NCBI RefSeq assembly: GCF_900112335.1
Contig: NZ_FOLG01000025.1
Span: forward strand, 1-35,718
Direction of reading: 5' to 3'
Origin: Tropicimonas isoalkanivorans
GTDB taxonomy: Bacteria; Pseudomonadota; Alphaproteobacteria; Rhodobacterales; Rhodobacteraceae
Length of the DNA stretch: 35,718 bases
Shown: positions 8,087-33,062 of the stretch, piece by piece
Position numbering within the stretch: the first letter of the stretch is position 1
Layout: each line of letters opens with the position of its first letter
Notes under the pieces: model-generated
What the model was told of the DNA's origin: nothing
The model's database searches: none
What the model saw: the letters and a program-made list of their open reading frames with translations, nothing else
Program-made: the position numbers and the translations under genes

Positions 8087-10522
8087 ATGGCCCTGCCGAA
8101 CGATCCGCTCCGCTCCTTGCAATGGCACCTCGACCTGATTGGCGACATCGAAACCGTGTGGGCGGACTACACCGGTGCGTCTGTCACGGTCGGCGTCTAC
8201 GACGACGGGTTCGAATACACCCACGATGATCTGAAGACGAACTACGACGCCACCCTCCACTTCAGGGATTCCACATCCAACACCTACGATCCGATGACCA
8301 CGGAAAACGTTCACGGAACGGCGGTTGCCGGGCTCCTCGGCGCGGAGGCGGACAACGGCCTTGGCGGCGTGGGCGTTGCGTACGACGTCACCATGACCGG
8401 CATCAATTTCGTGGGCGACATCCAGTTCGAGGAGAGCGCCGACGCCCTCACATTGGAGGCCCTCGCCTGGGCTGCCAACTTCGACATCATGAACAACAGC
8501 TGGGGCGAAGGGGCGGGCTATGGCTACCTGCTGAAATTTCCCTTCGGACCCTCCTTCTATGGTGGCGAGGTCGATCCAGACGCCCCGGGGAGCCTTGCAG
8601 ACCCCGCGAGCCGCGCCTCGCTGTGGGAAGGCGAATATGCCAAGATCTCCGCCGCGGGCCGAGACGGTCTCGGCACGGTCATCGTCCAGGCGGCAGGCAA
8701 CGACGCCAGCAATGCCAATGGCTACGCATTGAACGCCTCCCGTTTCACGATCACAGTCGCCTCCACCGACTCCGAGGGCAACGCCGACCCGTTTTCGAAT
8801 TGGGGCACGTCGATCCTGGTTGCTGCTCCCGCCGCCTCGGTCACCACGGATCTCATGGGCGCGAATGGGGCGAACACGAACCGGGACGACGGGAATTACT
8901 TCGACAGCTTTTCGGGCACTTCGGCCGCCACGCCAATCGTTTCGGGTGTGGTCGCGCTGATGCTGGAGGCCAACGAAACCCTCGGTTGGCGCGACGTTCA
9001 GAACATCCTCGCCCTCTCGGCCTCCCTGACCGGCTCGGCCTATGGCGGCGCGGCACAGGGCAGCGAGGTTTCGACCTGGGATTCCAATGGCGCGAGCATG
9101 TGGAACGGCGGCGGCGTCAGTTTCCACTTCAACTACGGCTTCGGCATGGTCGACGCGCTGGCGGCCGTTCGCATGGCGGAGGCGTGGTCCAAGTTTTATG
9201 CCTCGCCGCAGACGTCCGCGAACGAGCAGCATGTTTCGGTCGCCTATGCTGGCTCCGCAGTGGCCGTTCCGGACGACGCGCCGGCCGGCGAGACCGCGGG
9301 CACGGCGGCCGAGATCAGCCTCGAAGTGACCGACGACATCGCCATCGAGAGCATCGCCGTCACGATCAGCGCCACCCATGCCCGCGCCCTCGACACGGTC
9401 TTCACCCTGGTCGCGCCCGATGGCACGGAGATCCCGATCCTTGCCCGGGAGGGAGAGGAATACTACACGCTCGGCACCTTCGACAGCGGGGACGCGCTTA
9501 TGAAGGATGGCTTCGAATGGACATTCGAGGTGACGGCTTTCCTGGGAATGTCGAGCGCTGGAGACTGGACACTCCGGGTAGAGGATTTCAATTCCGACGG
9601 CCTGACGGGGCAGGTCGAGGGTTTTGCGCTGGATATCTTCGGTGCCACGGCGGGTGTCGACGACGTCCACCATTTTACCGACGATTTCCTGGAACTCCGG
9701 ACAGCCGAAAGCGGCCGGGGAACGATCAGCGACACCAATGGCGGCGTCGACTGGATGAACCTCGTGGCCGTTTCCGATGACGTCGTGCTCGACCTTGCGT
9801 CCCGCAGCCTATCGGTCGGTGGCGCCCTCTGGGCAACCATAGCCACGGGCAGTGAGATCGAGAATGCCGCTGCCGGTGACGGTAACGATGCCCTCGCCGG
9901 CAACGGCCTCGACAACGCGTTCGACGGCGGCCGCGGCAATGACACTCTGCTGGGCCGAGATGGAAACGACCGCTTGTGGGGTCAGGGGGGCGACGACCGG
10001 CTGGACGGCGGCAGGGGGCTCGATCGGTCCTGGGGTGGCGGCGGCAACGACAAGCTCTTCGGCCGTGGCGGCAAGGACCTGTTGGTAGGCGGCGATGGAA
10101 GCGACCTGCTCAAGGGGGCCAACGCTGCCGATACGCTCAAGGGCGGAGGCGGCGCGGACACGCTCGTCGGGGGAAAAGGATCCGATGGCATGACCGGCGG
10201 AAAAGGGGCGGACCGCTTCGTATTCACGTCTGTCAAGGACTCGCCAGCCACCGCCCAACGGGACATAATCACGGACTTCCGGAGCGGCGCGGACACCATC
10301 GTGCTCTCCGCCATCGACGCCAATGCGAACCGCCCGGGCGATCAGGCATTCCGTTTTATCGGGGATGACCCTTTCTCCGGTGCGCCGCGAGAGCTGCGCG
10401 TCGTGCAAAAGTCCGATGGCGTCCGGGTGATGGCAGACACGGACGGCGACGGGTCCGCGGACTTTTCACTCCAGCTTGCCGGGATGACGGCGCTGCCGCC
10501 TGCGGAGGACTTTGTTTTATAA
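8087..10522 (+). CDS. Secreted subtilisin-like protease with P domain and RTX repeats
   Basis: An 811-residue protein with three parts. Residues 1-375 form an S8 (kexin/subtilisin) protease with catalytic Asp39 (VYDDGFEYTH), His76 (NVHGTAVAGLL), oxyanion Asn205 (AAGND) and Ser279 (GTSAATPIVSG). Residues about 390-515 resemble the proprotein-convertase P domain (LEVTDDIAIESIAVTI, DWTLRVEDF). Residues about 592-705 are tandem GGxGxDxLx calcium-binding RTX nonapeptides, followed by a serralysin-type C-terminal module ending EDFVL, an acidic residue followed by hydrophobic ones as in type I secretion signals. There is no N-terminal signal peptide and no visible propeptide, consistent with export by an ABC-type type I system and folding on Ca2+ outside the cell. 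No type I transporter gene is in the window. GAGGA lies 6 nt before the ATG. Confidence 0.95.
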   Translation: MALPNDPLRSLQWHLDLIGDIETVWADYTGASVTVGVYDDGFEYTHDDLKTNYDATLHFRDSTSNTYDPMTTENVHGTAVAGLLGAEADNGLGGVGVAYDVTMTGINFVGDIQFEESADALTLEALAWAANFDIMNNSWGEGAGYGYLLKFPFGPSFYGGEVDPDAPGSLADPASRASLWEGEYAKISAAGRDGLGTVIVQAAGNDASNANGYALNASRFTITVASTDSEGNADPFSNWGTSILVAAPAASVTTDLMGANGANTNRDDGNYFDSFSGTSAATPIVSGVVALMLEANETLGWRDVQNILALSASLTGSAYGGAAQGSEVSTWDSNGASMWNGGGVSFHFNYGFGMVDALAAVRMAEAWSKFYASPQTSANEQHVSVAYAGSAVAVPDDAPAGETAGTAAEISLEVTDDIAIESIAVTISATHARALDTVFTLVAPDGTEIPILAREGEEYYTLGTFDSGDALMKDGFEWTFEVTAFLGMSSAGDWTLRVEDFNSDGLTGQVEGFALDIFGATAGVDDVHHFTDDFLELRTAESGRGTISDTNGGVDWMNLVAVSDDVVLDLASRSLSVGGALWATIATGSEIENAAAGDGNDALAGNGLDNAFDGGRGNDTLLGRDGNDRLWGQGGDDRLDGGRGLDRSWGGGGNDKLFGRGGKDLLVGGDGSDLLKGANAADTLKGGGGADTLVGGKGSDGMTGGKGADRFVFTSVKDSPATAQRDIITDFRSGADTIVLSAIDANANRPGDQAFRFIGDDPFSGAPRELRVVQKSDGVRVMADTDGDGSADFSLQLAGMTALPPAEDFVL

Positions 10523-10548: not shown

Positions 10549-11739
10549 TCACCGGAACAGGCCCAGCGCCTCCATGTCCACGTCCAATGGGCCGGCCAGA
10601 TCCTCAATCGAGTCGTAGATCAATTCCAGCGCGTACGGCGGGTTGTGGGCGTAAGCGCCGGGATCGGCCGTTACCGCCTTCCAGTTGAACGCGGCCTTCA
10701 GGAGCCGCGGGGTCCAGGCGCCGTAGTTGACCCGGCGCCCTTCGGCCTCATCCGCCACCCCGTCGCCATTCGCGTCGGCAAAGAAGTAGGGATAACGGTC
10801 CCCATCGTACACCATCGGCGTGGCCGCGACCTGGGCCGCATAGGCGAGGATCATCGTCATCAACTGGTCGCTGTTGGCGGCAAGGTCGTCATGGATGCCC
10901 TTGTTCGTGTCGCCGCTGCCATCGTAGCTGACGCGGGCGATGCGGATATCCTCGGGCGTTCCGTCGAAATGGCAGGTCAGGCAGGTCGCCTCGGACAGAT
11001 CAAGGCTGTGCGGATCGTGGCAGGAGTTGCAGGTTGCCACTGGCTTCGCATGCAAGAACCGGCCGGAATAGGTCTTGCCCGGATACTGGAACCCCACACC
11101 GCCGTAACCGCCAAGGGTCATGGATCCGGCCAGGTAGTAGTGCGGGTTCATAAACCGCAGCTCCGTGTTGACCTCGTCGTCGGCCATCTCGGCGGTCTTG
11201 GTGGCGACGTCACTGCCGGCGAGGCGGCCTTGATGACAGGTCATGCAGGCGACCTCGACCCCCGTGACCGGGTGGACGATGCCTGACGGCAGCGTGACCT
11301 CGGTGATGCTGCCAAGATCCGCGCTGTGGCAGGTCTCGCAATCGACGACGCCCCCGATGGGCACCGGCTCCTTGGGGATGCCCTTTTCACCACCGTCGAG
11401 GCCATGAAATGCGCGGAAGCCAATGCCCGAATGGCAAACGGAGCATTCCGGGTCGATTGCGCCGTCCTCATCCCAATGGCGAAAGGCCTCCGCCGTGTAA
11501 TCCGAATGCCCGCTGCGCGCCCAGGCCGCGATGACGCGCGCATTCGGGACGGCGATGGTCTGCGGCGCGAAGGGCCCGCTGCGCGGCATGATAAATATGG
11601 GCTGCCCGTTTTCCGGATCGCCGATGGCCGGCCCGGATCCAGCGGACTGGGCGAGGCCTGCCCCTGTACTCGCACTCGTCGCAAGAATTGCGGCCATGGC
11701 GAGCGTGATGAGAGACGGGAGTGCGGGGCGCCGGATCAT
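10549..11739 (-). CDS. Periplasmic pentaheme c-type cytochrome
   Basis: This 396-residue protein has a hydrophobic signal peptide (LAMAAILATSASTGAGLA, about residues 13-30) and five CxxCH haem-attachment motifs, at residues 99-103, 134-138, 165-169, 237-241 and 253-257. It is therefore exported and matured by the Ccm system as a five-haem cytochrome. A conserved-looking stretch NPHYYLAGSM (about 198-207) may supply distal ligands. Near residue 325 an EF-hand-like loop (DANGDGVADEAE) suggests a bound Ca2+. No membrane anchor is seen apart from the signal sequence. I do not recognise the exact family; it is not NapB, NrfA or a tetraheme NapC type. The gene is divergent from nqrABCDEF with 92 nt between the start codons, which suggests joint control and electron transfer linked to the Nqr complex or quinone pool. 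Confidence 0.88.
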   Translation of the reverse strand: MIRRPALPSLITLAMAAILATSASTGAGLAQSAGSGPAIGDPENGQPIFIMPRSGPFAPQTIAVPNARVIAAWARSGHSDYTAEAFRHWDEDGAIDPECSVCHSGIGFRAFHGLDGGEKGIPKEPVPIGGVVDCETCHSADLGSITEVTLPSGIVHPVTGVEVACMTCHQGRLAGSDVATKTAEMADDEVNTELRFMNPHYYLAGSMTLGGYGGVGFQYPGKTYSGRFLHAKPVATCNSCHDPHSLDLSEATCLTCHFDGTPEDIRIARVSYDGSGDTNKGIHDDLAANSDQLMTMILAYAAQVAATPMVYDGDRYPYFFADANGDGVADEAEGRRVNYGAWTPRLLKAAFNWKAVTADPGAYAHNPPYALELIYDSIEDLAGPLDVDMEALGLFR

Positions 11740-11762
11740 TGTGACGATCCTTGAAGTCTAGG

Positions 11763-11788
11763 GATAACCGGATCAGGTTTATGTTATC
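11763..11788. promoter_or_regulatory. Inverted repeat in the divergent cytochrome/nqr promoter region
   Basis: GATAAC (11763-11768) and its exact reverse complement GTTATC (11783-11788) are 20 nt apart centre to centre, about two helical turns. They lie in the AT-rich middle of the 92-nt gap between the cytochrome and nqrA start codons. A TATAGA hexamer at 11811-11816 could be a -10 for nqrA, but no well-spaced -35 accompanies it. An operator for a dimeric regulator is possible; the half-sites are short, so chance cannot be excluded. Confidence 0.35.
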
Positions 11789-11831
11789 ATTTTGGGCGAT
11801 TTTCAGCAATTATAGATGTCCATGAAGGACC

Positions 11832-13124
11832 ATGGGAGAAACCTTCTTGCTGACTCAGGTATTCTCCGGCGGCCTGACCGTCCCGGTTCCCACCGCGGCG
11901 CCCGAACGGAACGGCGTGGATGTGATGATTACGGAAGAGGCCGCGATCACGGCCCTGCCCGAGGACGACTTTCGCGTCGAACCCCTCGTCGACCAAGGCG
12001 ACAGTGTGGAACAGGGGGCGCCCGTTCTGCGATCACGCAGGCACCACGTGTTGTTGGTCACCGCACCGATGCCCGGACGCGTGGCCTCCATCGAGTTGGG
12101 GCCGGGCCACCGTCTATCCTCCATCCGCTTTTTCCTGGAGCCCGAGGCGGGGCGACGCGAGGTCGACACGCACCTGGCAAACCGGGGCGACGATCCCGGC
12201 GCACTGCGCGACCTGCTGCTCGGCACGGGCCTCTGGCGGTTCTTCCGCGCCCGCCCTTTCGGGCAGGTCCCATTGCCAACGGAACATCCCTCGGCGATCT
12301 TCGTCATGGCGGTGGATACCCGCCCGCGCGCGCCCTCGCCCCGCGAGGCGATCTCCGGACGGGCGGAGGCATTCGAGCGTGGATTGCACGCGCTGCTCCG
12401 AATGACCGAAGGGCCAGTGTTCCTATGCCAGGACGGCGGGAGGCCGGTGCTGGAAGGCGTTGTGCCCGACAGGCTGCGGCCCGTCTCGGTCGCAGCCACG
12501 CATCCCTGGGGGCTGGCCGGATTACAGATCCACCGCCTCTGTCCGGCGGAGGTCGGCACGCCGGTCTGGGACATCCATGCGGAGGATGTCGCGGCAATCG
12601 GCTCGCTGCTTGAAACCGGCCGGGTCCCGGAAACTCGTCTGGTTTCGATAGCGGGGCCGGCGCTGCGGCAGGCACGCGAGGTGCGGTGCCAGCCGGGGGC
12701 GGACCTGCGAGAGCTCTGCCACGGAATCGTCGCGCCCGGCCCGCACACGATCGTTTCGGGCTCCGCCCTTGATGGGCGGGAGGCGCACTGGTTGCGGCAC
12801 CGTGACCGACAGGTGACCGTTCTGGGCGGCAAGCCAAAGCGCCGGGCGCCCCACTGGTTCCTATCGGCTCTCGAGACCGCGTCGCGGCCCAAGCCCCTCA
12901 TCCCCACCGCGGCCCTAGATCAAGCGCTCGGCGGCGATCTTCCCGCCGCGCCGTTTCTGCGGGCGCTCACGTCTGGCGATACCGAAACGTTCCGGCGTCT
13001 CGGCGGGCTGTCCTTCGTCGAGGAGGATCTCGCACTGGCCGACTACATCACCGGCGCCGCCCCCAGCCTTCGCGCCTGCCTGTCCGCCCTGCTGCATCGG
13101 ATCGCGGTGGAGGAGGCGGCATGA
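11832..13124 (+). CDS. nqrA: Na+-translocating NADH:quinone reductase subunit A
   Basis: NqrA is the large peripheral cytosolic subunit of the Nqr complex, has no classical redox motif and takes part in quinone binding. This protein has 430 residues, close to the usual size of about 445. The N-terminal GGLTVPVP matches the family's KGLDLPIAG opening, the barrel-sandwich-like segment KxxV...DxGDxVxxGxPV is seen as VEPLVDQGDSVEQGAPVLR, and PMPGRVASIELGPGHRL follows. HPWGLAGLQIHRLCP resembles the conserved NqrA HPAGLxGTHIHFLxP signature. The gene order nqrABCDEF confirms the call. ATG 11832 has AAGGA only 2 nt upstream; TTG 11847 (LTQVFSGG) with GGGAG 8 nt upstream would align better with the N-terminus of typical NqrA and is a real alternative. 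The stop overlaps nqrB by 4 nt. Confidence 0.93.
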   Translation: MGETFLLTQVFSGGLTVPVPTAAPERNGVDVMITEEAAITALPEDDFRVEPLVDQGDSVEQGAPVLRSRRHHVLLVTAPMPGRVASIELGPGHRLSSIRFFLEPEAGRREVDTHLANRGDDPGALRDLLLGTGLWRFFRARPFGQVPLPTEHPSAIFVMAVDTRPRAPSPREAISGRAEAFERGLHALLRMTEGPVFLCQDGGRPVLEGVVPDRLRPVSVAATHPWGLAGLQIHRLCPAEVGTPVWDIHAEDVAAIGSLLETGRVPETRLVSIAGPALRQAREVRCQPGADLRELCHGIVAPGPHTIVSGSALDGREAHWLRHRDRQVTVLGGKPKRRAPHWFLSALETASRPKPLIPTAALDQALGGDLPAAPFLRALTSGDTETFRRLGGLSFVEEDLALADYITGAAPSLRACLSALLHRIAVEEAA

Positions 13125-13897
13125 TCCGCGGGCTGTGGGACAGGGAGACCGTGGCGATTCTGTTCCTCGTGGCGCTCCTACCGTTGGCTGCGACATGGCT
13201 GTCCCACGCGGGCTGGGCGGGCGCGATACGGCTGCTGTTTTTCCTGTTGGTTGCCGGGATCTGGCACCTCGTCTTCATGTTGGCCCGCGCGCAGCCCCCG
13301 TCCTTCGCCGGGGCCATAACCGCGCTCGCTCTGGCCATGCTGGTGCCTGGAGACCTCGGGGTGGTTCCGACCCTGCTTGGCACCAGCTTCGGCGTGGTCA
13401 TCGCGGAACTCGCCTTCGGTGGCTGGGGGCGCAACGTGCTCAACCCTGCGACCGTCACGCTCGCCTTTCTCGGCTTCGGCTTTCCGGCCGCGCCATGGCC
13501 GGACATGATCGTGCCGGTGGGATGGGCCGCTGTTCCGGTCGCAGTGATCGGCGTGTTTATCGGGATCCTGTCGCTCCGGATCCTCACCGGGGCCGGTCTA
13601 ACGTTTGGCATAGGCATGGCGCTTGGACTGGATCTGGCGGACGTGTGGACCGCCGTTGCCGTGGGTCTGGTTCTGCTCGTCTGTGACCCGGTCGCCAGCG
13701 CATCGACCCAATTGGGGCGATGGCTGAACGGCGCACTCTTCGGCGCGCTGGTCGCCCTGTTCGTTGCTCACTGGACTGAGGCGGCGCCGGTTCAGATCGT
13801 GGTGTCGGCGGCGCTGATCGCCTCTCTGGCGGCGCCACTTCTGGACGAGGCCGCCATCGCCCTCTGGCTCGCACGGAGGAGACGGCGCCTTGGCTGA
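13121..13897 (+). CDS. nqrB: Compact NqrB-like membrane subunit lacking the covalent FMN site
   Basis: NqrB is normally about 410 residues, membrane-embedded, carries an FMN bound by phosphoester to Thr in an S-G-A-T motif, and forms part of the Na+ path. This protein has only 258 residues. It keeps GTSFGVVIAELAFGGWGRNVLNPA (residues 87-110, written here as two overlapping family blocks: GVVIA and FGG-GRN-LNPA) and CDPVASAS with Asp189, equivalent to the conserved acid in the family's TDPVSAS motif. After FGFPAAP (residues 118-124), where the family has a loop with SGATPL, it jumps directly to the next helix, so no SGAT motif exists. It also lacks the first 50 or so family residues. The frame is intact, and ATGA overlap with nqrA and a TTG-start overlap with nqrC show a maintained operon, so this looks like a true variant. 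Confidence 0.88.
   Translation: MIRGLWDRETVAILFLVALLPLAATWLSHAGWAGAIRLLFFLLVAGIWHLVFMLARAQPPSFAGAITALALAMLVPGDLGVVPTLLGTSFGVVIAELAFGGWGRNVLNPATVTLAFLGFGFPAAPWPDMIVPVGWAAVPVAVIGVFIGILSLRILTGAGLTFGIGMALGLDLADVWTAVAVGLVLLVCDPVASASTQLGRWLNGALFGALVALFVAHWTEAAPVQIVVSAALIASLAAPLLDEAAIALWLARRRRRLG
13875..13881 (+). promoter_or_regulatory. Ribosome-binding site fixing the TTG start of nqrC
   Basis: GGAGGAG ends 8 nt before the TTG at 13890, inside the end of nqrB. No ATG or GTG in the nqrC frame is suitably placed here, so this site supports the uncommon TTG start. Confidence 0.6.
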
Positions 13898-14690
13898 CCT
13901 GTCCCCGATCTCTCTCTGGAAGCGGTTTTTGGCGCAACCGATTGACAGCCGGGGCAAGACCATTGCCGCCGCCCTGATCGTCTCTGCGACCTGCGCGCTG
14001 CTGGTGACGAGTGCGACAGTGATCCTTCGCCCCATCCAGCAGGCCAACCGGGCCGCAGAGCAGCAAGTGCGCCTGGAAGCGCTGATCTCAGCCATTCCCG
14101 GGATGCGGGAGGTGATGGGACGCGCGGGCGGCGGGGCGCTTTCCACTGTCGTGGTCGATCTGGAGGCCGCGCGCGCCGCCCCGGACGTCACGCCGGAGAC
14201 CCTTCCCGCGGCTTTGGATGCGCCGGAAAATTGGACACCGCTATCCCCCGAGCAGGACATGGCGATGATCGGCAGCCGGCCGAACCTGATGCAGGTGTTC
14301 TTCCTGCGAGACGGGGAGGATATCTCCCTCGCGATTCTTCCGATTTACGGAAGCGGGTACAACGGCCCGATCGAAGCCATGATCGCGCTTCAGGGCGACA
14401 TGAACACCATCGCCGGCCTGACGGTCACGGCGCAGGAGGAGACGCCGGGGCTTGGGGCGCGGATCGAGGAACCTGCGTGGCAAGCGAGTTTTGCCGGCAA
14501 GCGCATTGCGGACGACGCCGGGGCGGTCCGTTTTACCGTCGCGCGGGGCCGCGCCAGTGGCGCCTTTGAGGTGGACGGAATCACGGGCGCCACCCGCACG
14601 AGCAACGCCATGACCCGCATCGTGCGGTTCTGGGTGGGGCCGGATGGCTACGGCCCGCTTCTCGCCGCCATCCGTAAGGGGGAGTTCTGA
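13890..14690 (+). CDS. nqrC: Na+-translocating NADH:quinone reductase subunit C (FMN-bearing)
   Basis: A 266-residue subunit with one N-terminal membrane helix (TIAAALIVSATCALLVTSAT, residues 24-43) and a periplasmic FMN-binding domain. The flavinylation motif DGITGATRTS is at residues 229-238, with Thr235 the expected attachment point for FMN. Upstream are GSGYNGPI (154-161) and TPGLGARI (185-192), both conserved around the flavin in NqrC and RnfG. It passes electrons between the membrane FeS centre in NqrD/E and NqrB. Attachment of FMN needs an ApbE flavin transferase, which is not encoded in the window. Translation starts at TTG, overlapping the nqrB stop by 8 nt. Confidence 0.95.
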   Translation: MADLSPISLWKRFLAQPIDSRGKTIAAALIVSATCALLVTSATVILRPIQQANRAAEQQVRLEALISAIPGMREVMGRAGGGALSTVVVDLEAARAAPDVTPETLPAALDAPENWTPLSPEQDMAMIGSRPNLMQVFFLRDGEDISLAILPIYGSGYNGPIEAMIALQGDMNTIAGLTVTAQEETPGLGARIEEPAWQASFAGKRIADDAGAVRFTVARGRASGAFEVDGITGATRTSNAMTRIVRFWVGPDGYGPLLAAIRKGEF

Positions 14691-14693
14691 GCC

Positions 14694-15359
14694 ATGGCCG
14701 CCGGCGGAAAATACTGGGTGACCCTGACCGAACCGCTCATCCGGAAAAATCCCGTCACGCTCCAGATCCTCGGTCTGTGCTCTGCGCTTGCCGTCACCAC
14801 CGCCGTCGATACCGCATTGACCATGTCTGTCTCGCTCACGGTCGTTCTGGTGCTCTCTGCCGGGATCGTCAGCGCAATTCGCCGGATGATCCCGGACACT
14901 ATTCGTCTGATCGTGCAGATCATGATCGTGGCCTCTCTCGTCATTGTCATCGACCAGGTTTTGCAGGCCTATTTCTACGATATCAGCCGCCGCCTTTCCG
15001 TTTTCGTGAGCCTGATCACCACCAATTGCCTCGTGCTGGGGCGGACCGAGTCCTTTGCCCGTAACAACCGGCCCCTACCCTCGATGATCGACGCTCTGGG
15101 CAACGGGCTGGGCTACTCGTTGATCCTGATCGTCATCGGGGCGGTCCGCGAACTCTTCGGGACCGGCAAGCTTATGGGGGCGCAGGTCCTGCAAACCGTC
15201 GACCATGGTGGATGGTTCACGCCGTTCAGCCTGATGCTGCTCGCTCCGAGCGCATTCTTCCTGCTCGGCGGACTGGTTTGGGCAATCCGCTCAATCCGTC
15301 CGGACCAGGCCGAGGCACAGGAGTTCGTGCCCCCCCATGCGGAGGAGGTGCGCCGGTGA
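14694..15359 (+). CDS. nqrD: Na+-translocating NADH:quinone reductase subunit D
   Basis: This 221-residue hydrophobic protein has about six membrane helices and starts YWVTLTEPLIRKNPV, a typical NqrD opening (the family has PL...NNPI). The two cysteines that with NqrE form the intramembrane [2Fe-2S] centre are visible in LGLCSALAV (about residue 29) and ITTNCLVLGRTE (about residue 112). RELFGTG is another family block. It forms an inverted-topology pair with NqrE. The start codon is 3 nt after the nqrC stop, and the last codons overlap nqrE. The C-terminal tail (about 20 polar residues ending EEVRR) is slightly longer than usual. Confidence 0.95.
   Translation: MAAGGKYWVTLTEPLIRKNPVTLQILGLCSALAVTTAVDTALTMSVSLTVVLVLSAGIVSAIRRMIPDTIRLIVQIMIVASLVIVIDQVLQAYFYDISRRLSVFVSLITTNCLVLGRTESFARNNRPLPSMIDALGNGLGYSLILIVIGAVRELFGTGKLMGAQVLQTVDHGGWFTPFSLMLLAPSAFFLLGGLVWAIRSIRPDQAEAQEFVPPHAEEVRR
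15341..15350 (+). promoter_or_regulatory. Strong ribosome-binding site for the GTG start of nqrE
   Basis: GGAGGAGGTG is nearly a full complement of the 3' end of 16S rRNA and lies 5 nt before GTG 15356. It decides the nqrE start: the frame is open much further upstream but only this GTG is well placed. Confidence 0.65.
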
Positions 15360-15967
15360 GCGACGTCTTCAACCTCTTTTTGCGCGCGATGTTTGTCGAG
15401 AACATGCCGGTGACGCTCTTTTTGGGCCTCTGCACCTTCCTCGCGCTCTCCAGACGCCCGGAAACCGCTGTCGGCCTTGGCATCGCGGTGATTGGCGCGA
15501 TGGGTTTCACGGTACCGCTCAACCAGCTCATCTACAGCGCCGTCCTCGCCCCCGGCGCGCTGGCCTGGGCTGGATTTCCGGAGATCGACCTCTCCTACCT
15601 CTCGCTCATCGCCTTCATCGGTGTCATCGCGGCGGCTGTTCAATTGACGGAAATGGTCATCGACCGCTACTTCCCCCGCACATACGCAGCCTTCGGGGTC
15701 TTTTTGCCGTTGCTCACCGTCAATTGCGCGATCCTTGCCGGAAGCCTCTTCGTGGTGGAACGGAAGTATGGCTTCGTGGAATCCGTCGCCTTCGGTTTCG
15801 GCAGCGGCGCGGGGTTCGCGCTGGCGGTGGTGACGCTCTCGGCGATCCGGAGCCGTCTTGCCTATGCCGATCTGCCGGACGGACTGCGCGGGCTTGGCAT
15901 TGCCTTCTTCCTCGCCGGGATGATGTCCCTCGGGTTTTCCTCCTTCGCGCAGATGGCGGCTCAATGA
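15356..15967 (+). CDS. nqrE: Na+-translocating NADH:quinone reductase subunit E
   Basis: A 203-residue integral membrane protein, the normal NqrE length of about 200. It starts DVFNLFLRAMFVENMPVTLF and has the two FeS-ligating cysteines in FLGLCTFLAL (about residue 26) and LTVNCAILAG (about residue 119). MGFTVPLNQLIY and FLPLLTVNCAIL are characteristic family blocks, with about six helices in the opposite orientation to NqrD. The GTG start overlaps the nqrD stop, and the stop overlaps the nqrF ATG by 4 nt, so all three are probably translationally coupled. Confidence 0.96.
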   Translation: MSDVFNLFLRAMFVENMPVTLFLGLCTFLALSRRPETAVGLGIAVIGAMGFTVPLNQLIYSAVLAPGALAWAGFPEIDLSYLSLIAFIGVIAAAVQLTEMVIDRYFPRTYAAFGVFLPLLTVNCAILAGSLFVVERKYGFVESVAFGFGSGAGFALAVVTLSAIRSRLAYADLPDGLRGLGIAFFLAGMMSLGFSSFAQMAAQ

Positions 15968-17190
15968 CGGAGATCGCGGTCGGCAGTGTCGTTTTGATCC
16001 TCCTTGTTCTGTTGTTGACGGTGGGGCTTCTGGCGGCGCACCGGCGCCTCGTGCCGCAAGGAGGCGTGGCGGTGACGGTCAACGAAACCAGCGTCCTGGG
16101 CGCACGGCCCGGCGACCGGCTGCTGAGCGTGCTGCACGGGGCGGGCATCGGTATTCCGGCGGGCTGCGGCGGCAACGGCACCTGCGGGCTCTGCCGCGTC
16201 ACGGTGACCGGAGAGGGGGCCGGAGAGCCGCAGGCAACCGAACGTGGGGTCCTGTCGGCTGCGGAACGGCGTCAGCAGGTTCGGCTCGCCTGCCAGGTCA
16301 CGGTGCGGGGCCCTGTCTCGGTGACTGTCCCCAGCGACGCGCTCGACGCAGAGCGGCTCGTCTGTCCCGTCGTCTCAAACAGGATGCTGGCGCCGCTTAT
16401 ACGTGAATTGGTGGTGGCCCTGCCGAAGGATCACGACTTCCGGTTCCGCGCCGGAGCGTTCATGCAACTCACCGCGCCGCCCTACGAACTCGACTTCACG
16501 GACATCGAGGTGCCGGATAGCTTTTCCGAAGCCTGGAAAATCGCGGGATGGGATACGTTGAGCGCGAGGTCAACGCGGCCGGTGACGCGGGCCTATTCGA
16601 TCGCCTGCCGCCCGGAGGACGTCGCCGCCGGACGGCTCATATTCAACATTCGCCTCGCGGTGCCACCGGCGGGTCGTGAGGGGGAGGTTCCACCGGGGGC
16701 GGTGTCGTCCTATCTGTTCTCGCTGCAACCCGGCGACAGCATCGGCGTCGCGGGACCCTATGGCGACTTCCACGTTCAACCAACCCACCGCGAGATGATC
16801 TTCATCGGAGGCGGCGTCGGCATGGCGCCTTTGCGCGCCATGATCCACGAGCAGATCGGGCAAGGGACGCAGAGGAAGATGTCCTACTTCTACGGCGCAC
16901 GCACACGTGCCGACCTGTTCTACACCGAGGAATTCGAAGCTCTCGCCCGCCGAGACGGGACCTTCCACTGGACGCCCGCCCTTTCCGATCCCGCGCCGGG
17001 GGACCGCTGGACCGGAAAGACGGGCTTCATTCACCAGATCGTCGCCGACAGGATGCGGGACCATCCGGCACCCGAGGACTGCGAATACTATCTCTGTGGC
17101 CCGCCCGTCATGATCTCTGCCGTGCTGACGATGCTGGAACGGCTCGGCGTCGAGCGCGAAACGATCTTCAACGACGATTTCGGTGCGTGA
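15964..17190 (+). CDS. nqrF: Na+-translocating NADH:quinone reductase subunit F
   Basis: NqrF is the NADH-oxidising entry subunit. This 408-residue protein equals the classical length. It has one N-terminal membrane helix (residues 5-25), a plant-type [2Fe-2S] ferredoxin domain with ligands Cys68, Cys74, Cys77 and Cys110 (CGGNGTCGLC ... LACQ), then a ferredoxin-NADP reductase-like part with the FAD motif RAYSIA, the nucleotide motif IGGGVGMAPLRAM and the C-terminal YYLCGPPVM. All electron-entry residues look intact, in contrast to the shortened NqrB. It overlaps nqrE by 4 nt and ends the core nqr operon; a CBS-domain gene follows after 23 nt. Confidence 0.97.
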   Translation: MTEIAVGSVVLILLVLLLTVGLLAAHRRLVPQGGVAVTVNETSVLGARPGDRLLSVLHGAGIGIPAGCGGNGTCGLCRVTVTGEGAGEPQATERGVLSAAERRQQVRLACQVTVRGPVSVTVPSDALDAERLVCPVVSNRMLAPLIRELVVALPKDHDFRFRAGAFMQLTAPPYELDFTDIEVPDSFSEAWKIAGWDTLSARSTRPVTRAYSIACRPEDVAAGRLIFNIRLAVPPAGREGEVPPGAVSSYLFSLQPGDSIGVAGPYGDFHVQPTHREMIFIGGGVGMAPLRAMIHEQIGQGTQRKMSYFYGARTRADLFYTEEFEALARRDGTFHWTPALSDPAPGDRWTGKTGFIHQIVADRMRDHPAPEDCEYYLCGPPVMISAVLTMLERLGVERETIFNDDFGA

Positions 17191-17213
17191 AACGAGGAAC
17201 AAGGGAGACAGCC

Positions 17214-17606
17214 ATGGCTGACGATCGTATCGATACTGTCATGCTAACCGAGTTCCCGGTTCTTCGGCTCGACACGCCAACGCGGGAGGCTGTCGGGATC
17301 TTCACCGAAAGCGGCTGGTCGGCGATCCCGGTCGTGGACGCGGCCGGTAGCCTGATCGGCATCATGTCCCAAAAGGACTGCTTCCGGTCCGCCCTGAACG
17401 CGAGCTACTACCAGCAATGGAGCGGTACCGTCGCCGAGCACTACACTGCCGACGTGAAAAGCCTTGATGCTGAGATGGACGTCGTCTCCGCCGCTGAAGC
17501 CTTCATGGCACTTCCCTACCGCGCCTTCCCGGTCCTGCGTCATGGCCAGTTGGTCGGCATGATAAACCGGCAAGACCTGCTCCGGGTTTTTCTGCGCTTC
17601 GGGTAG
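17214..17606 (+). CDS. CBS-domain pair protein
   Basis: A 130-residue protein made almost entirely of one Bateman module. The first CBS motif runs from MLTEFPVLRLDTPTREAVGI to GIMSQKDCFR, the second from SLDAEMDVVSAAEAFMALP to GMINRQDLLR. Such stand-alone pairs bind adenine nucleotides (AMP, ATP, NAD or SAM) and act as energy sensors or regulators of other proteins. The start is ATG 17214, with AAGGGAG about 7 nt before it. It lies 23 nt behind nqrF in the same direction, so it is probably the last gene of the nqr operon and could tune the complex according to nucleotide state; that role is an inference. Confidence 0.9.
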   Translation: MADDRIDTVMLTEFPVLRLDTPTREAVGIFTESGWSAIPVVDAAGSLIGIMSQKDCFRSALNASYYQQWSGTVAEHYTADVKSLDAEMDVVSAAEAFMALPYRAFPVLRHGQLVGMINRQDLLRVFLRFG

Positions 17607-17743: not shown

Positions 17744-18571
17744 ATGGTCGAATTCACAATTGCCCAACTCCTGATGCTGGTGACTGGCGTTGCGGCAGCG
17801 GCAGTCCTCGCCGGGATCATGGCCGGCCTGCTTGGCGTCGGCGGCGGGATCGTGATCGTGCCAACGCTGTTCTGGATTTTGTCGCTTACGGATTTCCCTC
17901 GCGAACTGGCGATGCACATGTCCGTGGCGACATCGTTGCTGACCATCGTCTTCACCTCCATATCCTCGGCCCGCGCTCACCACAAACGCGGCTCGGTCGA
18001 CGTGGGACTGCTCCGGCTCTGGGGTCCCGGCCTCGTCCTGGGAGCGTTGACCGGCGGCCTCGCGGCGAAATACATCGACGCCGATGGCCTGAAGCTGATA
18101 TTCGGCGGCGTCGCGCTCCTTGTTGCTCTCAACATGGCGAGCCCGAAGACGCTCGTCGTGAGCAATTCACTTCCGAAGGGCAAGCTACTGAACGCCATGG
18201 TTTCCTACGTCGTCGGCACCTTCAGTTCCCTCATGGGGATTGGCGGCGGAACGTTGGGCGTGCCGATCCTCAGCGCCTGTTCAGTGGAGATCAAGCGGGC
18301 GGTCGGCACGGCAGCGGCCTTCGGGTTTCTCATCGCCGTTCCGGCCGTGGTCGGATTTGTGATTTCCGGAATGGCAGCGCCGAACCGCCCGCCCCTGTCC
18401 CTGGGATATGTCAGCCTTCCCGCGGCGCTCCTGATCCTGCCCTTCACCGTCAGCTTCGCCCCCGTCGGCGCCGCGCTCGCCCACCGGCTGGACGGCAAAT
18501 GGATCAAGCGCGCCTTCGCGGTCTTTCTGGGGATCACTGCCGTCCGCATGCTTATGGCGGGCCTCTCCTAA
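17744..18571 (+). CDS. TauE/SafE-family membrane transporter
   Basis: A 275-residue protein with about eight membrane helices and an internal duplication: MAGLLGVGGGIVIVPTLFW in the first half and LMGIGGGTLGVPILSACS in the second, the paired signature of the TauE/SafE (DUF81) family. Known members export sulfite, sulfoacetate or related organosulfur anions, though many have no assigned substrate. Between the halves is a short charged loop (HHKRGSVDVGLLRLWGPG). It is separated from the CBS gene by 137 nt with no obvious terminator, and from the downstream enzyme gene by 226 nt. No sulfur-pathway gene is nearby, so the substrate cannot be assigned. The Shine-Dalgarno match before the ATG is weak. 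Confidence 0.92.
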   Translation: MVEFTIAQLLMLVTGVAAAAVLAGIMAGLLGVGGGIVIVPTLFWILSLTDFPRELAMHMSVATSLLTIVFTSISSARAHHKRGSVDVGLLRLWGPGLVLGALTGGLAAKYIDADGLKLIFGGVALLVALNMASPKTLVVSNSLPKGKLLNAMVSYVVGTFSSLMGIGGGTLGVPILSACSVEIKRAVGTAAAFGFLIAVPAVVGFVISGMAAPNRPPLSLGYVSLPAALLILPFTVSFAPVGAALAHRLDGKWIKRAFAVFLGITAVRMLMAGLS

Positions 18572-28607: not shown

Positions 28608-30116
28608 ATGGTGCGCAAGACGATCCGCAATATCCCGCAGGAGCGGGCGTTCATGCCTGTGCAGGACCCGGAGGCGCGGGCCGCGAACTTCGACGAGGTC
28701 GCGCTCGGCTTCGACGAGGCGGCAGCGCTGCTGGAAAGCGAACGCTGCCTGATGTGCCCGGAACCCGCCTGCATCGCCGGGTGCCCGGTCAGCATCGACA
28801 TCCCCGGTTTCATCGAGAAACTGCTCAAGAACGACTACCGCGGCGCCTATGACCGCCTTACGGACTCCACCCTGCTACCGGCGGTCTGCGGCCGGGTCTG
28901 CCCGCAGGAGGAGCAGTGCGAGGGCGTCTGCGCGGTGGCGGTCAGCGGCGGGCTGGAGCCGGTCGCGATCGGGCGGCTGGAACGGTGGCTGGGCGACAAG
29001 GCCATTGCCGAGGGCTGGCACAAGTCGCGTCACATCGAACCCGCTCGCTTCCGCGTCGGCGTCGTCGGCTCTGGACCCGCCAGCATGGCCTGCGCGGCGG
29101 ACCTGGCCAAGGCAGGCTGCGAAGTCACGGTCTTCGAGGCGCTGCACGCCCCCGGCGGGGTGCTGCGCTATGGCATCCCGGAATTCCGCCTGCCCAACAG
29201 CGTCGTGGACGCCGAGATCGGCCAGCTCGAAACGCTCGGCGTGGAGATCAAGTGCAACACACTCGTGGGGCGCCTCTTCACCGTGGAGCAGATGCTCTCC
29301 GAAATGGGCTATGACGCCGTCTTTATCGGCGCCGGCGCAGGCACGCCGAAATTCATGGACATCCCCGGCGAGAACCTGAACGGCGTGCTGTCGGCCAACG
29401 AGCTTCTGACCCGCTGCAACCTGATGCACGCGGGCGACTTCCCAAATTACGACACGCCGCTCGGCCTCGGAAAGCGCATCGCGGTGATCGGCGCGGGCAA
29501 CACGGCGATGGATGCGATGCGCGTCTCGCTCCGGCTTGGCGCGGAGGAGGTCCACTGCGTCTACCGACGAACGGAGCTCGAGTGCCCGGCCCGGGCCGAG
29601 GAACTGCACCACGCGCAGGAGGAAGGGATCGCGTTCCACTGGCTGACCTCGCCGGTGGAGCTTCTGGGCGACGCGGAGGGCAACGTGCGCGCGCTCCGCT
29701 GCCAACGGATGGAGTTGGGCGAGCCCGACGAGTCCGGCCGCCGCCGCCCCGTCCCGGTGGAGGGGAGCGAGTTCGACTTCGAGGCCGACACCGTCGTTTA
29801 CGCCATAGGCACCTCGCCCAATCCGATCCTCGGGCAAACGTCGAAGATCCGGCTCAACAAGTGGGGTTACATCGAGACCGACGAGACCCTGGCAACCTCG
29901 CTGGCGGGCGTCTACGCCGGCGGCGACATCGTGACCGGCGCGGCCACCGTCATCCTCGCGATGGGCGCAGGGCGCAAGGCGGCCGAAAGCATCCGGCAAT
30001 ACCTCGGCATCCGCGATAGCGCGTCCGTTTACGAACCGGAGCGGACCGGCTTCGAGGGCACGCTCTTCGGAATCGACCTCGCCGAGCGGAACTTCACCCA
30101 TATCAGATTGATGTAG
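28608..30116 (+). CDS. nfnB: NfnB-type NADPH/ferredoxin subunit (GltD-like, two [4Fe-4S])
   Basis: A 502-residue protein of the glutamate-synthase small-subunit family. The N-terminal domain has the two clusters of cysteines CLMCPEPACIAGCPV and CGRVCPQEEQCEGVC that bind two [4Fe-4S] clusters. Then come a FAD dinucleotide motif (VVGSGPASMACA), GVLRYGIPEFRLP, an NADP-binding motif (VIGAGNTAMDAMR) and the terminal YAGGDIVTGAATVILAMGAGR. With NfnA it can couple NADPH, NADH and ferredoxin by flavin-based bifurcation. I use ATG 28608 (GGGAG 9 nt upstream) rather than GTG 28602, which is too near that site. No large GltB partner is encoded nearby, and pairing with NfnA rules out ordinary glutamate synthase. 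Confidence 0.92.
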   Translation: MVRKTIRNIPQERAFMPVQDPEARAANFDEVALGFDEAAALLESERCLMCPEPACIAGCPVSIDIPGFIEKLLKNDYRGAYDRLTDSTLLPAVCGRVCPQEEQCEGVCAVAVSGGLEPVAIGRLERWLGDKAIAEGWHKSRHIEPARFRVGVVGSGPASMACAADLAKAGCEVTVFEALHAPGGVLRYGIPEFRLPNSVVDAEIGQLETLGVEIKCNTLVGRLFTVEQMLSEMGYDAVFIGAGAGTPKFMDIPGENLNGVLSANELLTRCNLMHAGDFPNYDTPLGLGKRIAVIGAGNTAMDAMRVSLRLGAEEVHCVYRRTELECPARAEELHHAQEEGIAFHWLTSPVELLGDAEGNVRALRCQRMELGEPDESGRRRPVPVEGSEFDFEADTVVYAIGTSPNPILGQTSKIRLNKWGYIETDETLATSLAGVYAGGDIVTGAATVILAMGAGRKAAESIRQYLGIRDSASVYEPERTGFEGTLFGIDLAERNFTHIRLM

Positions 30117-30133
30117 GCAGCGGGACACAGGCA

Positions 30134-32068
30134 ATGACACCGACTGGCAAACAGCACCACGCCGAAACCGCCACGCTTTCCCGCGAGGAAACACCCGGCA
30201 CGGGGCAAAGCTCCGCCGAAGTTCTCCAGGAACACATCGTCGAGATCGTGAGCGACTCCGGCGAGGGCGCGCAGCGCTGCGGGCAATCGCTCGCCGCCAT
30301 CGCGGCACGATCCGGCAACGGGATCTGGACGGTTGAAATCATCCCCGCCGAGATCCAGCCGCCCCACCGCTCCGTTGCAGGGGCGAGCGGCAACCGCGTG
30401 CGCATCGCTTCGCACCGCGTCACGAACGTGGGTGACGAGGCCGACCTGGTGGTCGCCTTCAACGAGCAGGTCCTGCTCAGTCGCCTCCGCGCAGGCGAAG
30501 TGAAGCCAGGCGCCACGATCCTTTTGGAAAACATGTGGGCCGCCTACCCCGATCCGGACATCCGCGCCGCCTACGCCAAGGTCCGCGACGAGGTGAAGGC
30601 CGCCGGCTATCGCCTCTACGAGGTGCCGCTCGAGGTTGAGTGCCAGAAGTACGTCCCCGATCCGCGACGCGGAAAGAACATGTTCGTCCTCGGGATGCTC
30701 TGCGCGATCTACAGTCTGGATCCCGAACTGGCCCGCGCGCAGGTGCGGTTCACATTCGCCAAGAAGGAGCAGAAGATCGTCGATGCCAACGTGGAGCTTC
30801 TGGACGCAGGACGCGCCTGGGCGGAGCAGAACCTCGACCTGCGCTACGCCATCCCTGCCCCGCCCGTGACCGAGCCGCAGGTGGTGATGAACGGCAACGC
30901 CGCACTTGCGCTCGGCGTGGTGGCCTCCGGCATGGAGGTGTGCGCGATGTATCCGATCACGCCCGCGACCTCGGCCTCGCATTACCTGTCCAACATCTTC
31001 GAAAAAGTCGGTTGCGTCGTCCACCAGGCGGAAGACGAGATCGCCGCCTGCACCTTCGCCATCGGCGCCAGTTACGCGGGCAAGTGCGCCGTCACGATAA
31101 CCTCCGGCCCCGGCCTGTCGTTGAAACAGGAGGGGATAGGTCTTGCCGTCATGGCCGAGATCCCACTCGTCGTGATCGACGTGCAGCGCGGCGGCCCGAG
31201 CACCGGCCTGCCGACAAAGGTGGAACAAGGCGACCTGATGGCCGCGATGTTCGGCGGCCACGGGGACGCGCCAAAGGTGGTCATGGCCGCTTCCTCCATC
31301 GAGGATTGCTTCTATTCCGTCATCACGGCACGCAAGATCGCGGAGACCTTCAACATGGTCGTGGTAATCCTGACCGACGCCGCACTTGCCACCGCGCAAC
31401 AGCCCTACCCGCGGCCGAAGTTCAATGCGGACTGGCTCGCCCCGCCGGTGAACCAGAGCGCAGTGCCGGAAGACGCCCACCCCTATGACTGGGACGAGCG
31501 CACCGGCATTGCCACCCGCTTCATTCCCGGCCAGCCGAACGGGATGCACTGCCTGACCGGCCTAGCCCACGACCGCGACAGCCACGTCGCCTATGACCCG
31601 GAGATCAACGAGGAAGGCCTGCTGAACCGCTCCCGCAAGCTCGCGGCCCTGCAGACGACCCTGCGCCTCGCTCCTGTCTTCGGCGACGAGGAGGGTGACC
31701 TGCTTCTGATCGGCTGGGGCAGCACCCGCGGTGCCATCGAGGAAGCGGTGAGCATGCTTCGCGCGGAGGGCCACAAGGTCTCCTCGCTGCATCTGAAGTT
31801 CCTGCAACCCATGGCCTCTGGCATCGACGCGGTGATGAAGCGCTTCGGCAAGGTCATGACGATCGAGAACAACTGGAACGACCCGCCGAGCGACCCGCTC
31901 ATCACACCCGACAACCGCCGCTACTCCCACCTCGCGCAGCTCCTGCGCTCGCGCTGGCTGATCGACGTCGACTGCTGGGGCAAGGCTCGCGGACAGCCGC
32001 TCAAACCCGCCGCCATCGTCCAGGCCGCACGGGCCAAGCTCGCTCAGGCGCAAGGGGAAGACCAATGA
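30134..32068 (+). CDS. korA: 2-oxoacid:ferredoxin oxidoreductase, fused gamma-alpha subunit
   Basis: A 644-residue protein in which the gamma domain (about residues 30-225, VEIVSDSGEGAQRCGQS) precedes the alpha, TPP-pyrimidine domain (from about 250). Diagnostic motifs are MYPITPATS (272-280), QAEDEIAACTFAIGASY with Glu300, TSGPGLSLKQEGIGLA and DVQRGGPSTGLPTK. The fused order is that of KorA/OorA-type and some indolepyruvate-type enzymes. With KorB it oxidatively decarboxylates a 2-oxoacid with CoA and reduces ferredoxin. The substrate is most likely 2-oxoglutarate, but cannot be fixed by eye. The first 30 residues are a polar extension. The ribosome-binding site is weak and the stop overlaps korB by 4 nt. 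Confidence 0.9.
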   Translation: MTPTGKQHHAETATLSREETPGTGQSSAEVLQEHIVEIVSDSGEGAQRCGQSLAAIAARSGNGIWTVEIIPAEIQPPHRSVAGASGNRVRIASHRVTNVGDEADLVVAFNEQVLLSRLRAGEVKPGATILLENMWAAYPDPDIRAAYAKVRDEVKAAGYRLYEVPLEVECQKYVPDPRRGKNMFVLGMLCAIYSLDPELARAQVRFTFAKKEQKIVDANVELLDAGRAWAEQNLDLRYAIPAPPVTEPQVVMNGNAALALGVVASGMEVCAMYPITPATSASHYLSNIFEKVGCVVHQAEDEIAACTFAIGASYAGKCAVTITSGPGLSLKQEGIGLAVMAEIPLVVIDVQRGGPSTGLPTKVEQGDLMAAMFGGHGDAPKVVMAASSIEDCFYSVITARKIAETFNMVVVILTDAALATAQQPYPRPKFNADWLAPPVNQSAVPEDAHPYDWDERTGIATRFIPGQPNGMHCLTGLAHDRDSHVAYDPEINEEGLLNRSRKLAALQTTLRLAPVFGDEEGDLLLIGWGSTRGAIEEAVSMLRAEGHKVSSLHLKFLQPMASGIDAVMKRFGKVMTIENNWNDPPSDPLITPDNRRYSHLAQLLRSRWLIDVDCWGKARGQPLKPAAIVQAARAKLAQAQGEDQ

Positions 32069-33057
32069 ACGCATCCATGAGCCAATGCCTGATGCAGATG
32101 GTCCACACGGACTATGTCATCGCCGACTACCAGAGCGAAATTGCTCCGCGCTGGTGCACCGGCTGCGGCGACACCGCGATCCTGACCGCCATGCAGCGTC
32201 TGTGCCGCGACGAGCAGCTTCCGCCCGAAAAGACGGTCTGCGTCTCCGGGATCGGCTGCGCCTCCCGCCTGCCGCACTACATGAACGCCTACGGCTTCCA
32301 CGGCATCCACGGGCGCGCCCTGCCCGTGGCGGAAGGGATCAAGATCCGCCGGCCGGACCTCAACGTCTTCGTCACCACCGGGGACGGCGACTGTTGCTCC
32401 ATCGGCGCCGCGCACTGGCTCCACGCCATCCGCTACAACATGAACATGACGCTGCTGCTGCACGACAACAACGTCTACGGCCTGACCAAGAAACAGGCGT
32501 CCCCCACGTCCCCGCAGGGCATGAAGAGCAACACCACGCCATTCGGCGCGACGCTCAACCCATTGAACCCGTTGACGGTGACGCTCGGAGTGTCGAACGT
32601 CTCCTTCGTCGCGCAGGCGGTCGACTGGATCCCCGACCTGCTCTACGACATTCTGCGGCAGGCCTACCATCACAAGGGGTTTTCCTTCGTTCGCATCCTG
32701 CAGCGCTGCCCGAACTTCATGGAGCATCGGTTCGACGACTGGGTCCGCGACCCGTCCAAGATGCGCATCCTGACCCATGCCAACGGCCTTAGGCTGAAGC
32801 CCGAGGTCTCCCGCGTCTACAAGAACCAGGAAACGCACGACCCGCTGGACATGCCACGGGCGTTGGCTCTTGCCGCGCTGAAGGAGGAAATTCCGGTCGG
32901 CATCCTGTACCGCGACCCGACCGTGCCCTGCTACGACGAGTTGCGCGCGGGCGAACGGCCGAGCACGCCGGGCCTGGTGGAACTCGTGCTCAACGAGGAA
33001 TTCGACAAGGTGGGCATCTGGCCCGCCGAGACGGCACCGGCTGCGGCCGGGGAGTGA
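32065..33057 (+). CDS. korB: 2-oxoacid:ferredoxin oxidoreductase, beta subunit
   Basis: This 330-residue TPP- and [4Fe-4S]-binding subunit has the four candidate cluster ligands Cys31 and Cys34 (PRWCTGCGD), Cys65 (SGIGCASR) and Cys215 (LQRCPNF). The TPP-Mg motif is TTGDGDCCSIG (105-114) followed by LLHDNNVYGLTKKQASPTS. HGRALPVAEGIK (82-93) is a strong family block, and the GLTKxQxSPTS form is common in 2-oxoglutarate-type KorB. It receives electrons from the TPP intermediate and hands them to ferredoxin. There are no further ferredoxin domains, so an external carrier is required; the next gene encodes a candidate. Confidence 0.95.
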   Translation: MNASMSQCLMQMVHTDYVIADYQSEIAPRWCTGCGDTAILTAMQRLCRDEQLPPEKTVCVSGIGCASRLPHYMNAYGFHGIHGRALPVAEGIKIRRPDLNVFVTTGDGDCCSIGAAHWLHAIRYNMNMTLLLHDNNVYGLTKKQASPTSPQGMKSNTTPFGATLNPLNPLTVTLGVSNVSFVAQAVDWIPDLLYDILRQAYHHKGFSFVRILQRCPNFMEHRFDDWVRDPSKMRILTHANGLRLKPEVSRVYKNQETHDPLDMPRALALAALKEEIPVGILYRDPTVPCYDELRAGERPSTPGLVELVLNEEFDKVGIWPAETAPAAAGE

Positions 33058-33062
33058 AGATC

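Follow-up and report, generated by a model that had tools for sequence, protein, structure and literature searches.

The 35,718-nucleotide window analyzed here (contig NZ_FOLG01000025.1 of Tropicimonas isoalkanivorans) carries nqrA-B-C-D-E-F, in this order, at 11832-17190 on the plus strand; among these genes is a compact nqrB (13121-13897) whose 258-residue product lacks the loop that holds covalent flavin mononucleotide (FMN). Our data suggest, with a probability of about 0.6, that the locus encodes a remodeled six-subunit NQR that has lost the second half of its electron path, and in which the FMN of NqrC would donate to a pentaheme c-type cytochrome instead of quinone. An initial annotation, made from the DNA sequence without database searches, had proposed either an electron route without the NqrB flavin, possibly via a cytochrome, or a distinct NqrB-like family. 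Both ideas are supported together, the compact form being a conserved lineage and the cytochrome a probable acceptor, although the riboflavin pocket is kept in the window. That annotation did not mention that a cytochrome gene diverges from the operon, that the quinone-site helices are lost, that this genome has canonical nqr and rnf operons too, or that nqr is exchanged for a ferric-reductase-like protein in related loci.

Losses in compact NqrB

Among 292 genomes of the order, the cytochrome was matched in 43 (29 of 113 genera; E 1e-10) and compact NqrB in 29 (E 1e-30). We compared the regions around all 43 cytochrome matches (this genome was represented by the window itself) and that of G251, which has a compact NqrB without a cytochrome match. 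A genome-collection scan yielded seven further loci, from Paracoccus, Pseudorhodobacter, Allosediminivita, Primorskyibacter, Defluviimonas, Boseongicola and Rhodophyticola (three of these genus names, checked in the taxonomy, belong to Rhodobacterales). The resulting 42 nqr loci comprise 34 of the 43 cytochrome loci, G251 and the seven scan loci; L061 and L005 represent one assembly (identical contig and coordinates) and are both counted. An nqrB gene was called in 41 of the 42 (248-278 amino acids), the exception being L038, where it is broken. Canonical NqrB was represented by 31 proteins: 30 of 44 places in a phylum sample, one per high-scoring genome, plus the canonical copy of this genome. 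Canonical controls for the other residue counts were 31 NqrD, only two NqrE and only one NqrF.

The open reading frame confirmed the initial description of an NqrB relative with intact frame and overlaps, which are 4 bases with nqrA and 8 with nqrC. The solved structure nearest by sequence is V. cholerae NqrB (E 1.1e-15), followed by RnfD at 5.8e-4, and the predicted model (predicted local distance difference test score, pLDDT, 79; predicted template modeling score, pTM, 0.77) matches NqrB 8a1x_B with a template modeling (TM) score of 0.77, by query length, and RnfD 9eri_D with 0.80. Because of these structural and sequence matches, the window protein is, as modeled, a shortened NqrB/RnfD fold. 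It scores 73.2 bits against the NCBIfam nqrB model TIGR01937, below the cut-off of 349.9, and compact NqrB matches PF03116 only, with no fused PF00175.

In the alignment, every one of the 41 compact proteins has a gap in the column of the FMN-bearing Thr236, where all 31 canonical proteins have T, and no [ST]GA[ST] was found in the window NqrB. Between the 'YP' position and the helix that follows it, compact proteins have 15-16 residues and canonical proteins 57-75. The N-terminal segment, rightly reported as absent, is reduced to 0-22 residues ahead of the first helix, versus 51-83 in canonical NqrB (these reading frames were taken from stop to stop, so that a few residues ahead of the true start may be counted in the upper lengths). 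Given 0-22 residues against at least 51, compact NqrB, as aligned, has no room for the N-terminal amphiphilic quinone-site helices; roles for these helices (AH-I and AH-II) and for D346, N200, G198, T162 and G141 are described in passages of PMC10643135. Other canonical residues are also depleted, including G140 (0/41 compact, 29/31 canonical), E144 (7/41, 31/31), F338 (14/41, 27/31) and F342 (15/41, 29/31). D397 is present in every protein of both sets (41/41, 31/31). The GG-GRN-LNPA block noted at the outset lies at residues 100-110, and Asp189, also noted then, aligns with V. cholerae D346.

An electron path putatively cut after NqrC

The remaining subunits keep their cofactor residues. All 42 loci contain nqrA, nqrC, nqrD, nqrE and nqrF. 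In the window, NqrA and NqrF take the places of RnfB and RnfC, which are absent, and NqrD, NqrE and NqrF pass their curated NCBIfam models (NqrF with 420 bits against TIGR01941, cut-off 295), while NqrA, NqrB and NqrC fall short. The FMN threonine of NqrC (scored as the residue only) and the four cluster cysteines of NqrD and NqrE are present in 42/42, as is the FAD (flavin adenine dinucleotide) motif of NqrF, whose own cluster cysteines are found in 41-42 of 42. The NqrC lysine K207 is replaced by arginine in 38/42. Since these NqrC, NqrD, NqrE and NqrF residues are kept and the FMN threonine of NqrB is gone, the path, as read from the motifs, runs unbroken from NADH as far as the NqrC flavin and is interrupted beyond it.

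Many window-like members (e.g., L006, L009 and L053) have a second SGAT string near residue 39 of NqrC, close to its N-terminal membrane helix; it is probably not a flavin site. The apbE gene accompanies 41 of the 42 nqr loci and is absent from the window; counts for apbE, the cytochrome and the CBS gene are matches to hidden Markov models, some of them mere pieces (e.g., apbE in L007 and L067). This genome has four apbE genes elsewhere, and its canonical nqr operon (C15) and its rnf operon (C48) each have an apbE gene within 7 kb.

In the mechanism that we propose, NADH would reduce NqrF at its FAD and 2Fe-2S cluster, after which the NqrD/NqrE cluster would carry the electron through the membrane to the periplasmic side, where the covalent FMN of NqrC would receive it. 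From there it would pass to the periplasmic pentaheme cytochrome c, bypassing the NqrB FMN, riboflavin and quinone, and the cytochrome would hand electrons on to a further acceptor. NqrB may have been retained as a scaffold and possibly as an ion path, its D397 being invariant, and the motifs suggest that ApbE would be required for NqrC alone. There is precedent for a multiheme cytochrome taking electrons from such machinery in MmcA, which acts on an archaeal Rnf according to passages of PMC11024163.

The pentaheme cytochrome

The window cytochrome has five CXXCH motifs (residues 99, 134, 165, 237 and 253) and, on visual inspection of its N-terminus, appears to be secreted. A cytochrome gene or piece occurs in 41 of the 42 nqr loci, with five CXXCH in 39 and divergence from nqrA in 40. 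Ten histidines are invariant in 25 aligned cytochromes: the five of the CXXCH motifs plus H78, H200, H230, H244 and H365; most of the 48 called cytochromes have ten cysteines. With regard to a catalytic, NrfA-like role, the invariant histidines could fit either five bis-histidine hemes or four such hemes plus a catalytic histidine; the protein may be a carrier or a terminal reductase. The CX3CH and CX4CH motifs that MmcA has among its seven were not found in the 48 called proteins (three of them shortened by the gene caller). A structure model from an eight-row alignment had a mean pLDDT of 36.5 and was not used.

All 25 aligned cytochromes match Cytochrome_C7, and 13 also match PF02335 (Cytochrom_C552; E up to 0.01, best 6.6e-8). 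Among solved structures the closest chain is 'Cytochrome c-552' 3ubr (E 1.9e-5, spread across several weak stretches), which we take to be an NrfA, and the second is a nonaheme cytochrome (E 0.0013). This likeness to cytochrome c552/NrfA covers parts of the cytochrome only. NrfA usually has a CXXCK motif, whereas none occurs in the 48 called cytochromes, three of which were shortened by the gene caller.

In samples of the class and the phylum, the cytochrome was matched in 2 of 385 and 7 of 398 genomes, respectively, all from the window's own family and none more distant, at a threshold of 1e-15 with at most five candidates scored per genome, a setting that distant relatives may escape. A recurrent substrate clue was sought among the neighbors of 50 pooled loci; apart from the module itself and a Na+/H+ exchanger, those that recur are, by eye, members of large families (ABC ATPase in 9 loci, response regulator in 8, P-type ATPase in 8), with three small clusters in 5, 4 and 4 loci. 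A gene for a TauE/SafE-type sulfite exporter lies just 3' of the window's module (17744-18571), and such sulfite-linked neighbors look like single cases.

Exchange of nqr for a ferric-reductase-like protein

In 34 of the 43 cytochrome-bearing genomes nqr lies beside the cytochrome, and in the other nine (L034, L035, L041, L042, L044, L046, L051, L074 and L150) it does not. All nine instead carry, divergently oriented, a ferric-reductase-like transmembrane protein with PF01794, PF08022 and PF00175 (FAD- and NAD-binding); conserved histidines are shared by the eight that were aligned, and PF03116 was matched in none of the nine genomes. Two unrelated machines, both by their domains putatively able to carry NAD(P)H electrons across the membrane, thus appear to be exchanged beside one cytochrome. 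The case for electron delivery from the compact NQR to the cytochrome rests most strongly on this synteny, which is indirect evidence.

The Na+/H+ exchanger gene (one BLAST cluster; PF00999 was confirmed for the four members tested) is present in 19 of the 42 nqr loci and in none of the eight pooled swapped loci, L150 having been left out of this count (Fisher P = 0.018, ignoring kinship among loci). Eighteen of the 19 abut one end or the other of the module: 16 lie no more than 160 bases from the cytochrome and two within 8 bases of the CBS gene, while the remaining one (L037) is 5.6 kb away. Together, the abutting exchanger and the invariant D397 hint that cation movement persists in the nqr version. 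We put forward, as a tentative and rather doubtful extension, an ion pump that would oxidize NADH with a periplasmic cytochrome c: NqrDE and NqrC would form the export limb, NqrB a non-redox channel or scaffold, and the cytochrome the dedicated acceptor.

A separate lineage and other NqrB copies

The initial annotation held that a second full-length nqrB in the genome would overturn its reading. One does exist, in a canonical nqr operon (C15; L002, L088) whose NqrB has FSGAT, and the genome also has an rnf operon (C48; L001, L089) with VSGAT in RnfD. A single branch of the NqrD tree nevertheless splits the 42 compact from the 31 canonical sequences (100/100; bootstrap incompletely settled), and this genome's canonical NqrD groups with the canonical ones. 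Because of this split, the compact nqrB is, on the tree, a separate conserved lineage and not a damaged copy of the genome's canonical gene. The outgroup, RnfE, sits on a branch too long for rooting, and the tree does not show which of the two forms came first.

The compact gene set recurs in loci from 35 genomes and 24 genera, and no match above the canonical nqrB cut-off was found in 34 of these 35 genomes. A PF03116 search found no further NqrB/RnfD protein in 30 of 31 compact-bearing genomes, nor in six of the seven genomes of the scan loci, those of the cultured species Rhodophyticola porphyridii and Allosediminivita pacifica among them, which argues that no canonical subunit could stand in there and that the compact complex would have to function by itself. 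Since 34 of the 35 genomes have no canonical NqrB, complementation by one was rejected as a general explanation.

Alternative explanations

The shortened complex could still reduce quinone if the NqrC FMN docked in the vacated FMN place and passed electrons via NqrB riboflavin, the cytochrome being separate but co-regulated. Part of PMC11334425 proposes that a covalent flavin samples a non-covalent site in two-subunit Nqr/Rnf-like complexes, nqrA is retained in 42/42 loci, and residues near riboflavin are often kept: G198 in 41/41 compact and 31/31 canonical proteins, D346 in 39/41 and 30/31 (E in this genome's canonical copy), N200 in 27/41 and 31/31, and N203 in 25/41 and 31/31. However, N200 or N203 is altered in 20/41 (both are present in 21/41), no space is left for the amphiphilic helices that seal the quinone site, and G141, whose replacement is said in PMC10643135 to block quinone, is another residue in 27/41 (glycine in 14/41 compact, 28/31 canonical). 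Quinone reduction would also leave the ferric-reductase swap beside the same cytochrome unexplained, and we consider it unlikely, though not negligibly so. Alternatively, the module may run in reverse, a periplasmic donor feeding the complex through the cytochrome while the ion gradient pushes electrons onto NAD+. Rnf is described as reversible in passages of PMC12174285, and exchanger genes abut 18 of the 42 nqr modules. The swap partner, however, shares its domains with ferric reductases and NADPH oxidases, a class of proteins that export electrons, and no donor dehydrogenase recurs beside the module among the pooled loci; reverse operation is decidedly unlikely.

Several observations weigh against a cytochrome-linked, quinone-independent complex. 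N200, N203 and D346 occur together in 19 of 41 compact proteins, including that of the window, which also has G at the G141 place in the alignment; the riboflavin pocket thus seems to be retained in the window's lineage, compact NqrB may still bind flavin, and this retention is, from the aligned residues, the main result against a wholly flavin-free NqrB. Full-length NqrB/RnfD proteins exist besides the compact one in two genomes, the window's and that of L007 (Primorskyibacter, one member). No cytochrome was matched near the nqr genes of L072 or elsewhere in that genome at E 1e-10, L052 holds a cytochrome fragment only, and in L038 (G023) the cytochrome and nqr genes, nqrB included, are split over frames. 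These defective loci, with the apbE gene missing from the window, would also suit a decaying duplicate without function, but the catalytic residues of NqrC, NqrD, NqrE and NqrF stand in 41-42 of the 42 loci, and the recurrence of the set across 24 genera, mostly without canonical nqrB, makes decay very improbable. An assembly or gene-calling artefact in the window is hardly credible: the initial annotation suggested looking for homologues of the same length, and 40 other loci of the same architecture, from other assemblies, share the length class and the gap, which excludes an assembly error as its cause.

Relation to known systems and implications

The compact complex resembles Na+-NQR in its six subunits and their order, the NADH, FAD and 2Fe-2S domains of NqrF, the NqrD/NqrE cysteines, the NqrC FMN threonine and the NqrB fold; it differs in a compact NqrB without the FMN loop and quinone-site helices, a separate NqrD-tree branch and the adjoining cytochrome. 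Two-subunit Nqr/Rnf-like complexes likewise combine an NqrB/RnfD-like part without a flavinylation site with an NqrC/RnfG-like flavoprotein, and one-way electron export has been proposed for them in passages of PMC8238504, PMC11334425 and the preprint PMC10979944. As described in these passages, which form the basis of the comparison, they have an NAD-binding domain fused to the NqrB-like part, whereas here there are six subunits and a dedicated cytochrome. In Methanosarcina, a multiheme cytochrome c of the same locus, MmcA, takes Rnf-type electrons, according to excerpts of PMC11024163 and PMC12174285. MmcA has seven hemes and belongs to a ferredoxin-driven archaeal Rnf, in contrast to the five CXXCH, NADH-type input and bacterial host considered here; the excerpts of PMC11024163 also relate it to octaheme tetrathionate reductase and state that it is absent from Rnf-using bacteria. 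The compact form is not shown in the sections seen of the evolutionary study PMC4014512, and no six-subunit NQR lacking the NqrB flavin and having a dedicated cytochrome was found among the matches listed from the openly licensed PMC literature.

Parts of a 2025 review call the membrane-subunit cofactors of NQR and Rnf strictly conserved (PMC12174285), and the coupling of electron flow to ion movement remains under debate, one model centering on NqrB/RnfD (passages of PMC12174285 and PMC10643135). The compact complex, often the sole NQR of its genome, may be a ready-made experiment, in that pumping, or its absence, would show whether NqrB redox chemistry is needed. If it is a cytochrome-linked pump, the second electron membrane crossing in NQR would not be needed for coupling, and the complex would decide between NqrDE-centered and NqrB-FMN-centered pumping models. 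The loci also point toward a route dedicated to carrying electrons from NADH into the periplasm of Rhodobacterales, and toward an orphan family of pentaheme cytochromes that two unrelated membrane machines would serve.

Gene layout and neighbors

Table 1. Features of the compact nqr locus, in window coordinates
Feature	Position	Strand	Evidence
Pentaheme c-type cytochrome, 396 aa (amino acids)	10549..11739	-	PF14522
Intergenic region between divergent cytochrome and nqrA	11740..11831	.	gene coordinates
nqrA, 430 aa, diverged	11832..13124	+	204 bits vs TIGR01936, cut-off 321
Compact nqrB, 258 aa, ATG start	13121..13897	+	PF03116, E 3.3e-19
NqrB motif GRNVLNP at residues 103-109 (positions equivalent to G198, N200 and N203, near riboflavin)	13427..13447	+	
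Place of the canonical SGAT loop and following segment, residues 122-132	13484..13516	+	
D189, equivalent of riboflavin-binding D346	13685..13687	+	alignment
D242, equivalent of NqrB D397	13844..13846	+	alignment
nqrC, 266 aa, TTG start, FMN attachment motif TGAT from residue 232	13890..14690	+	
nqrD, 221 aa, both cluster cysteines present	14694..15359	+	
nqrE, 203 aa, both cluster cysteines present	15356..15967	+	
nqrF, 408 aa, 2Fe-2S cysteines and FAD motif present	15964..17190	+	TIGR01941
Empty place where 41 other nqr loci carry apbE (some only pieces)	17191..17213	.	
Two-CBS-domain protein, present in 41/42 nqr loci	17214..17606	+	

No sigma-70-like consensus was listed in the intergenic region between the cytochrome gene and nqrA, where the scan for promoters and terminators ran near chance level. 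A subtilase gene with a P-domain and RTX repeats (8087-10522) adjoins the cytochrome gene, at the place that holds the Na+/H+ exchanger in 16 related loci. Farther away, at 28608-35273, lies a 2-oxoacid:ferredoxin oxidoreductase-like cluster with POR_N/POR and TPP_enzyme_C/PFO_beta_C subunits, a Pyr_redox/Fer4_20 protein and a 736-residue protein with sub-threshold similarity to Fer4_13.

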